A DNA stretch of 29,608 bases. It comes from a virus. The position numbers were made by a program, and so were the translations under genes. The notes beneath the pieces were generated by a model that was not told where the DNA came from, searched no databases, and saw only the letters and a program-made list of their open reading frames with translations. Below, one piece after another: positions 21,620 to 24,366 of this stretch; position 1 is the stretch's first letter, and each line of letters starts with the position of its first letter. The DNA lies in IMG/VR virus record IMGVR_UViG_3300014720_002390, positions 1 through 29,608 of that record. The stretch is one strand, 5' to 3'.

Positions 21620-21628
21620 TATAAATAT
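21620..21628 (-). promoter_or_regulatory. ATATTTATA element before virion block
   Basis: Lies in the 37-base gap after the sigma-factor gene, 13 bases before the ATG of the 118-aa gene that opens the virion block, in the context CCATATTTATATTAAAT. It is a candidate late-class signal because of this position. Confidence 0.45.
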
Positions 21629-21643
21629 GGAAGATGCAAAGAG

Positions 21644-22393
21644 TTATAATGCCATAGTAATACGTCCATGTTCATAAAACTCATTATACTTACGAATATA
21701 TATTACTTTTAGGCGTTTAATTATTTTAGTAATTTGAGGTGTTGATGCCTCAGTCATTTCCTTAATATAGATGTATAAGGCCTTTTTATTAAAAATATCA
21801 ATATTTTCACTTTTACGGAATAACTCAACAATAGCATCAGCTATTTGAGCATCACGTTGTTTAGGAAATAAAATGAATATATTATGGTCAATATATTTAG
21901 TGAATTGTTTTAAAAATGAGACAGGTTCAATATTGTGGCTTGCCTCACTAATATTTACTAAGTCAATTAAAATTGATTTGTCTTCATCAACAGCTTCAAC
22001 AGGTGCTTTATCTTTTAGCTTCTTATAATTTGCATTATTATATAGAATAAGATAGCGTTTAGCAATAGTACCAAAGTAAGAATAAGCCTTTCCTTTACTT
22101 TGATCATATAAGTGTAACTTTTCAAGAAGAAAGGCGACAACCTCATGTTGGAGTTCAGGGATTGTATCCACCTCTGTATAGTAAAACTTAAAAGTATGAA
22201 TGATATTTTCAGCCAGTTTATGAAAGGCATAATTAATTTTTTCGTTAAAAAGTTTATTTCGTTTCTTAGGACTTCTTAATTTCAAATATTCAATGATAGC
22301 ATTCTCAGTTTCCTGAGTGAAATAATTAATTGATTGTTTTGGTTTGCGTTTACGGACAGTCCCCTTCTTGGTTAATAATACCTCTTCACTCAT
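21644..22393 (-). CDS. 55: Late-transcription sigma factor, T4 gp55-like
   Basis: A 249-aa protein resembling the divergent sigma factors of T4-like phages. INYFTQETENAIIEYL (22-37) opens the helical domain. The central region (about 60-128) with ENIIHTFKFYYTE, LQHEVVAFLLEKLHLYDQSK, GKAYSYFGTIAKRYLI and NNANYKKLKD matches the sigma region-2-like core of gp55 relatives. A C-terminal helix-turn-helix-like part (STPQITKIIKRLKVIYIRKY) follows. gp55 replaces the host sigma and, with sliding clamp and coactivator, directs late transcription. The gene sits right before the virion block it would serve. T4 gp55 is somewhat shorter (about 185 aa). Confidence 0.82.
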   Translation of the reverse strand: MSEEVLLTKKGTVRKRKPKQSINYFTQETENAIIEYLKLRSPKKRNKLFNEKINYAFHKLAENIIHTFKFYYTEVDTIPELQHEVVAFLLEKLHLYDQSKGKAYSYFGTIAKRYLILYNNANYKKLKDKAPVEAVDEDKSILIDLVNISEASHNIEPVSFLKQFTKYIDHNIFILFPKQRDAQIADAIVELFRKSENIDIFNKKALYIYIKEMTEASTPQITKIIKRLKVIYIRKYNEFYEHGRITMAL

Positions 22394-23452: not shown

Positions 23453-23629
23453 TTATTCAGTTTCTGAGTTGATTAAAGTGCGAATTTCTTCTATTTTATC
23501 TTTCATTTGACTAACCATATCTTTGGCTGTCATAATTGTAAAACTAGGATTAGAAAATTGAGCTTGAAAACCAATAAGCATATTTTCAAGTTGATCCAAT
23601 TTTTGTTCTACTGGTTGTTTATATCTCAT
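23453..23629 (-). CDS. 58-aa helical protein (hypothetical)
   Basis: A short gene between the glutaredoxin-like gene and the HD gene. Its ATG overlaps the upstream stop (ATGA) and the TAA at 23453-23455 lies ten bases before the HD start. It encodes two amphipathic helices (VEQKLDQLENMLIGFQAQF and KDMVSQMKDKIEEIRTLI) joined by SNPSFTIMTA, with an acidic end. The exact ATGA junction and the filling of an otherwise empty 180-base gap make it a real gene in my reading. No family is recognised; a small helical-hairpin partner protein is possible. Confidence 0.7.
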   Translation of the reverse strand: MRYKQPVEQKLDQLENMLIGFQAQFSNPSFTIMTAKDMVSQMKDKIEEIRTLINSETE

Positions 23630-23931
23630 ATATATTCTTTTATAATATTTACTAATTCAGGTATAGTATCAAATGTACGTAAAATATCTGATGTTTCCAA
23701 CTTTGTCTCAGGGACAATAGTGATTACTTTATCTCCTAAATCAATAAACACAATTGGATATGTTTCTGTTTTAAACTTATCCTCAATTTGATCAGCAAAA
23801 TCAGAAAATTGATGAGCATTAATATTAGTATAGGTTATTCCGCAACTGTCTAGCTCACTCTTTAACCAAGTGCAATAATCACAGTCACTTAATGTCAATA
23901 ACCTAACTCCTATTTCTCCATTATTACTCAT
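23626..23931 (-). CDS. Glutaredoxin/thioredoxin-like protein
   Basis: A 101-aa thioredoxin-fold protein. The redox motif is C17-D-Y-C20 in SDCDYCTWLK, and the cis-proline is P59 in TYPIVFID. Length fits a single glutaredoxin domain. Phage glutaredoxins commonly donate electrons to ribonucleotide reductase, but no reductase gene is in this window. It is the first gene after the structured intergenic region at 23932-24060 and its stop overlaps the start of the 58-aa gene. Its leader has AGTAAATAATTT before the ATG and no Shine-Dalgarno sequence. Confidence 0.85.
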   Translation of the reverse strand: MSNNGEIGVRLLTLSDCDYCTWLKSELDSCGITYTNINAHQFSDFADQIEDKFKTETYPIVFIDLGDKVITIVPETKLETSDILRTFDTIPELVNIIKEYI

Positions 23932-23951
23932 AAATTATTTACTAGTGTTCT

Positions 23952-23990
23952 AAAAAAATATGGAAAATTCCTTGGGGAGCCAAATTTTTC
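23952..23990 (-). terminator. Weak hairpin followed by seven T's
   Basis: In minus-strand RNA the arms TTGG and CCAA enclose a four-base CUCC loop, and outer AAAA/UUUU arms add a second helix across an asymmetric internal loop. The bases CCAUA and then seven U's (23952-23958) follow. The layout resembles an intrinsic terminator or attenuator in the leader of the glutaredoxin gene, but the stem is not strong. Confidence 0.35.
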
Positions 23991-24000
23991 TTAATGTGTG

Positions 24001-24014
24001 TATATAAATATATA
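24001..24014 (-). promoter_or_regulatory. Palindromic TATATAAATATATA box
   Basis: A near-perfect palindrome that holds the ATATTTATA element (24003-24011). It lies directly after the strong hairpin and about 70 bases before the glutaredoxin start, so it may be the promoter for the 23931-21644 gene run. Being palindromic, its direction cannot be read. Confidence 0.4.
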
Positions 24015-24015
24015 A

Positions 24016-24041
24016 GAGGGATGAGCTCACGCCCACCCCTC
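24016..24041 (-). terminator. 11-bp hairpin with GUGA (GNRA) tetraloop
   Basis: In minus-strand RNA, GAGGGGUGGGC pairs with GCUCAUCCCUC over all 11 positions around a GUGA loop. Two of the pairs are G-U wobbles, which on the plus strand would be A-C mismatches, so the structure is complete only in RNA made in the gene direction. An A/U-rich stretch follows. It closes the accessory block (24061-29504) and is best read as a terminator or 3'-end stabilising hairpin. GC content is strikingly above its surroundings. Confidence 0.65.
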
Positions 24042-24060
24042 AGGCTAACTAACACCAACA

Positions 24061-24366
24061 TTATTTGGTAATTTCAATAATTCCATTTCTTAACATTTTA
24101 TCAATTTTTTCTCTAACAGCATTAGGATGTGTATTAAGATATGTTTGTTGATATTCCATAGGACCCACAATTGTGCACCATTCATTCAAATCATCAAACT
24201 TATTTTCCTCATAAGCTCCATCAACATATAATCCAGCGTCTGTTATTAATACTTCTTGTTCAGACATTTTATCCCAATAATCATATTCGGGAGAATTTTC
24301 ATCTCCATATAGATCATTAAGACGTTCAAGTTCTAATGCAGCTGTTTCTGTTAATTTGAATTTCAT
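24061..24366 (-). CDS. Acidic hypothetical protein
   Basis: A 101-aa, strongly acidic protein (many Glu and Asp, for example YGDENSPEYDYWDKMSEQE) with no recognised domain. A middle strand-like part LITDAGLYVDGAYEE and a helix with NAVREKIDKMLRNGIIEI end the chain. Two bases separate it from the MoxR-like ATPase gene upstream, and it is the last gene before the strong hairpin. Close spacing suggests it is co-produced with the ATPase/VWA pair and might be a partner or a DNA-mimic-like inhibitor. That is speculation from composition and position. Confidence 0.55.
   Translation of the reverse strand: MKFKLTETAALELERLNDLYGDENSPEYDYWDKMSEQEVLITDAGLYVDGAYEENKFDDLNEWCTIVGPMEYQQTYLNTHPNAVREKIDKMLRNGIIEITK

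Follow-up and report, generated by a model that had tools for sequence, protein, structure and literature searches.

The 129 bases that precede the glutaredoxin gene (grx) in a 29,608-nt stretch of viral DNA, referred to here as the window, very probably represent a compact transcriptional junction, in which a putative terminator is followed by a predicted late promoter of a variant T4 type and then by a predicted early promoter of the Bacteroidetes type for an operon with a likely late sigma gene. The evidence comprises a folded and covarying hairpin, the enrichment and direction of an AT-rich motif, an invariant 20-nt spacing between two further motifs, the gene order and a remote homology to gp55. 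The features of the junction and its surroundings are as follows.

24061-24366, minus strand: gene of 101 aa, the upstream flank of the gap; the upstream transcript would be that of the 101-aa gene/MoxR-like ATPase operon
24016-24041, minus strand: predicted terminator hairpin, 11 bp with a GUGA tetraloop (fold, covariation, terminator scan)
24001-24014, minus strand: predicted late promoter TATATATTTATATA, with the core TATTTATA at 24010-24003 (upstream 8-mer enrichment)
23953-23984, minus strand: predicted early promoter, TTTG at 23984-23981 (-33), a 20-nt spacer and TATTTTTT at 23960-23953 (-7) (45 of 45 leaders)
23972-23983, minus strand: dyad TTGG-N4-CCAR overlapping the -33 element (arms invariant in 25 of 25)
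23626-23931, minus strand: grx, which opens the operon (match to PF00462, Glutaredoxin, in Pfam; E 2e-8)
21644-22393, minus strand: gene for the likely gp55-like late sigma, same operon (profile-profile match to gp55)
21620-21627, minus strand: next TATTTATA, directly downstream of the gp55-like gene and before a gene of 118 aa (same position in phage immuto and in the relatives G001, G004 and G007)

Source of the window and types of leader

The window comes from a viral metagenome and is part of the genome of a T4-type phage. Its closest named relative by protein is Flavobacterium phage immuto (44-48% identity), and protein comparison identified Microcystis phage Mel-JY01 as a weaker one. An SD-like 4-mer was found before just two of 33 window genes, a scarcity that resembles the translation signals of Bacteroidetes and is in keeping with the phage probably having its host among them. 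All predicted genes of the window are on the minus strand, and the gap at 23932-24060 is exactly what separates the ORFs 24061-24366 and 23626-23931 on that strand. An earlier note, made from the sequence of the window, had remarked that these 129 bases stand out among nearly touching genes, and the gap is indeed the widest among the predicted genes, the runner-up being 96 nt.

Searches of IMG/VR with the glutaredoxin protein gave 23 loci with the protein alone and 66 with an alignment, all of which were picked independently of their leaders. On contigs that lacked characterisation, genes were predicted with a simple rule for ORFs. A separate search with a DNA pattern gave 49 contigs, in which the pattern stood before glutaredoxin except for one chance match, L052. 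The distinct leaders are of two types. Type I, to which the window belongs, has the hairpin and the AT box, followed after 10-22 nt by the TTGG element, whereas type II has the AT box, ~70 nt and the TTGG element, and no terminator hairpin before the box. The ~70 nt of type II (as in L128, L149 and L168), between late box and early promoter, contain in most members a near-invariant CCGTTAAATCCCCGGTAAAGGCCG followed by TTTGGATGACC, a stretch that is absent from the window. A nucleotide search of named phages did not reveal a homologous leader, and comparison with the immuto genome showed that immuto has neither grx nor the exact junction of the window. In a scan of the whole window no Rfam family was above the gathering threshold.

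The conserved unit before grx

The unit TTG-N20-TATTTTTT was exact in all 45 distinct leaders from the protein search that had enough sequence, a count that, as with all counts across relatives given here, consists of non-independent events since several of the sequences share ancestry. The flanks of the unit in these 45 leaders vary in length, from 10 to 74 nt on the side of the late box and from 20 to 31 nt, once 59, on the side of the start codon. Matching TTG-N20-TAnnTTT units occur before many other early genes. In immuto, whose early-region genes have TTG-N20-TATATTTAGGTA in common, the spacing of TTG and TAnnTTT upstream of genes peaks at 20 with 29 cases, any other spacing having at most two. 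The same spacing is the main peak in G004 (13 cases), which has a second peak at 16 (nine cases), and G001 has six cases each at 20 and 16.

Promoters of the primary sigma factor of Bacteroidetes consist of TTTG at -33 and TANNTTTG at -7, although F. johnsoniae as a whole shows a weak -33 motif (PMC6847099). The window unit resembles these promoters in its TTTG, its 20-nt spacer and its TAnnTTT, and TATTTTTT matches TANNTTTG at five of the six near-invariant positions. It differs in that the phage -7 element has T in place of the last G, the near-invariant one at -5, as it does in 25 of 25 distinct sequences, and in having the additional TTGG-N4-CCAR dyad. Based on this resemblance, TTTG-N20-TATTTTTT is best considered a putative early promoter of host type (Bacteroidetes-type -33/-7), presumably active and read by a sigma factor of that kind. 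Transcripts from Bacteroidetes primary-sigma promoters start 4-5 nt past the -7 element, and the predicted start in the window is at ~23948.

The TTGG and CCA arms of the dyad are invariant in 25 of 25 distinct sequences, whereas the first three of its four central bases vary. Changes in the outer pair are mostly uncompensated, so pairing in RNA is unsupported, and the dyad may instead be an operator.

This part of the gap had initially been described as a second hairpin with seven U's, and the gap as a whole as perhaps a terminator, promoter and attenuator in series. The run of T's is present (23958-23952, minus strand) but the hairpin is at the level of chance (z ~-0.5), as ~50 of 200 shuffles fold equally well, and its outer pair is broken and uncompensated in five of 25 distinct relatives. 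It was therefore rejected as an RNA structure that folds like shuffles and does not covary. Strong sequence conservation, the invariant TTGG/CCA arms and the T run might all be expected of an attenuator or leader riboregulator, in which transcripts from an upstream promoter would fold AAAAAUUUGG..CCA..UUUUUUU and then stop or continue. Such an element is nevertheless very unlikely here, since in addition to its shuffle-level fold the inner T run is replaced by A in two of the 25 distinct sequences, and what is conserved is a pair of boxes with fixed spacing, of a kind also found before many other early genes. The exact 20-nt spacing in all leaders, the variable flanks and the lack of excess folding or covariation favor a promoter, and of the proposed series the terminator and the promoter were retained while the attenuator is better explained as the host-type promoter.

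Two sets of observations in the relatives also concern early promoters. In the early regions of G001 and G004, TTGACC(CGG)-N13-TAnnTTTA occurs before many early genes, in some cases with an extra TTG that gives N20, and diverged copies are present in the window upstream of 25565 and 29504. This N16 arrangement (TTGACC-N13-TAnnTTTA) initially suggested a separate middle promoter, but it may or may not be one, as several of the sites have a further TTG, 4 nt upstream, with which the spacing is again N20 (TTGnTTGACC). In immuto (NC_055915), five of 20 early promoters have a strong terminator-like hairpin between TTG and TATATTTAG, usually followed by T's (sites 22092, 25512, 64522, 67985 and 69590; z -2.8 to -4.8), and these nested hairpins can be read as an upstream terminator inside the promoter.

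Hairpin and AT-rich box

On the minus strand, 24041-24016 has a folding energy of -19.8 kcal/mol (z -5.2), which none of 200 shuffles equalled, and the fold bears out the 11 pairs and GUGA loop proposed in the earlier note. RNA of the plus strand reaches just -10.9 kcal/mol with interrupted pairing, because two G-U pairs turn into C-A, and the two wobble pairs are thus specific to minus-strand RNA, as had also been claimed. The check that had been suggested for this structure, compensatory stem changes in relatives, gave a positive result. Among 15 distinct type I hairpins, 6 of the 11 pairs have two-sided changes and 91.5% of pair cells are standard; none of 500 shuffles reached the covariation score, and the signal was lost when the partner strand was slid. 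The loop always has four bases in these 15 hairpins and is mostly of the GNRA class (GUGA, GUAA, GAAA), with UACG once. In a terminator scan covering half of the window, this hairpin was the strongest, and the scan found nine sites versus 4.0 +/- 2.2 expected.

The hairpin has the G+C-rich stem, the tetraloop and the T-rich tail after an operon's last gene that are typical of an intrinsic (rho-independent) terminator. It is also kept in relatives in which the upstream gene differs (the 101-aa gene, an ATPase and others), as expected for the end of an operon. Where it departs from such terminators is in its tail, which is broken by A's. The U tract after the stem is UUAUAUAUUU (DNA TTATATATTT), which qualifies under the scan's 5-of-8 rule and is weaker than the UUUUUUU of relatives such as L004 and L056. 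The A's are there because the tail would double as the late promoter, TATATATTTATATA (24014-24001) sitting within it. We interpret the hairpin as a probable intrinsic terminator, at which the upstream transcript would have its 3' end. A fusion of terminator and late promoter as a genome-wide rule was rejected, as terminators were found at 11 of 68 late promoters versus 12 of 134 gene starts, an enrichment that is not significant (p 0.16).

A small RNA processed from the leader had also been proposed as a possibility. A reading in which the hairpin marks one end, 5' or 3', of such an RNA from the grx leader would suit a stable, conserved hairpin of GNRA type, but we consider it highly improbable. 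Both predicted promoters lie downstream of the hairpin, so the transcript with its 3' end there would be that of the upstream genes. Moreover, an entire group of relatives, those of the long leader type, is devoid of the hairpin yet retains both promoters and grx, and there is no Rfam match.

Downstream of the putative terminator, the AT-rich core TATTTATA ties for first among the window's 8-mers upstream of predicted genes (seven genes versus 0.05 expected). The same 8-mer ranks top in immuto (26 genes versus 0.2 expected) and is strongly enriched upstream of genes in G004, G007 and G001 as well. In the window it lies within 32 nt before six gene starts versus 0.22 under rotation, with 7 of 20,000 rotations as good, and in five genomes it is found mostly 9-41 nt before gene starts on the gene strand. 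The genes that it precedes in immuto, usually at a distance of 18-30 nt from the start codon, include those for terminase (terL), gp20, tail sheath, tail tube, baseplate hub and tape measure. In G007, the gene for the major capsid protein has no TATTTATA of its own.

Late promoters are TATAAATA at -13 to -6 in T4 (PMC1524935) and NATAAATA in S-PM2 (PMC2984593). The box on the gene strand of the window is not the canonical TATAAATA but its reverse complement, TATTTATA, and the two differ at two central positions (A to T changes), making TATTTATA a variant outside the canonical T4 late class. Otherwise there are parallels to the T4 system, namely one AT box of 8 bp a short distance ahead of late genes and a likely gp55-like sigma that is encoded by the phage. 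These parallels, and the enrichment before genes, suggest that the TATTTATA box is a late promoter of a variant T4 type, for which both activity and sigma factor are predicted. Its start would be at ~23997 if T4 geometry holds, the spacing being assumed from T4. The late promoter of Aeh1 is CTAAATA, and transcription from T4 late promoters depends on gp33 and the gp45 clamp. The literature searched, which lay largely outside the subscription journals, contained no description of late promoters with TATTTATA.

The 14-nt box at 24001-24014 had been described as palindromic, and it is present, but as an imperfect palindrome that departs from its reverse complement at 2 of 14 positions. The plus strand has an exact TATAAATA at 24003-24010, but its reading as a canonical late promoter of T4 type, from which antisense RNA would run across the terminator, can hardly be correct. 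It was rejected by the direction counts, the gene-strand TATTTATA being the enriched form upstream of genes (7 versus 1 in the window, 26 versus 8 in immuto). Nor does the plus strand have a plausible gene downstream.

The gp55-like protein and the proposed junction

The operon downstream of the gap consists of nearly touching genes in the order grx, 58 aa, HD phosphohydrolase, 90 aa and the 249-aa gp55-like protein. T4 likewise has a glutaredoxin gene, nrdH, upstream of its gene 55, both being on one strand. Among the tests of gp55 identity, a single one was informative, a comparison of two profiles. The profile built from 12 homologues and that of gp55 of T4, Aeromonas, pelagiphage, cyanophage and Stenotrophomonas origin aligned over 109 columns (E 4.8e-6, probability 86%). 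Single-sequence searches of Pfam and PHROG gave a hint of a sigma factor at most, the PHROG late sigma family being matched in one relative (E 0.0024), and a PDB sequence profile did not settle gp55 identity. The AlphaFold model had a low pLDDT of 61, and a Foldseek search with it gave no significant sigma structure. The 249-aa protein is likely a gp55-like late sigma, remotely homologous and strongly diverged.

From these features we infer termination, promoter activity, the assignment of sigma factors to boxes, timing and feedback. RNA of the upstream genes would end at the hairpin 24041-24016, and the terminator would isolate the junction by keeping upstream transcripts out. Early in infection, host polymerase with the Bacteroidetes primary sigma would start at TTTG-N20-TATTTTTT, ~19 nt past the late box, and the grx-58aa-HD-90aa-gp55-like operon would be expressed soon after infection. 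Later, polymerase with the gp55-like sigma would start at TATTTATA, adding late expression of its own operon and potentially establishing positive feedback on the sigma factor. With early and late boxes before it, the sigma operon probably has both an early and a self-activated late promoter. Early and late promoters before one gene have been described for RB49, S-PM2 and Syn9 (PMC2984593), and these phages resemble the window in having a host-type early and a late promoter for one operon. Unlike them, the window has a late box that would at the same time be the tail of the terminator before it, and its operon itself carries a likely late sigma.

The model predicts a positive feedback loop on a late sigma. 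For a group of aquatic T4-type phages that are known almost exclusively from metagenomes, it potentially offers a testable set of promoter rules (early TTG-N20-TAnnTTT, late TATTTATA), which would allow early and late genes to be called from sequence. It would also point to a drift of late-promoter specificity in a branch whose gp55 has strongly diverged. A broader proposal, which we put forward tentatively and with more doubt than conviction, is that a Bacteroidetes-infecting branch of T4-type phages has its own late consensus, (A)TATTTATA, a sigma operon that activates itself through a terminator-fused late promoter, and an early promoter under the control of a regulator that binds the TTGG-N4-CCAR dyad. 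Genes for gp55-like proteins were additionally observed on contigs (L108-L111) in archaeal, gammaproteobacterial and Bacteroidetes MAGs, which are probably mis-binned phage contigs.
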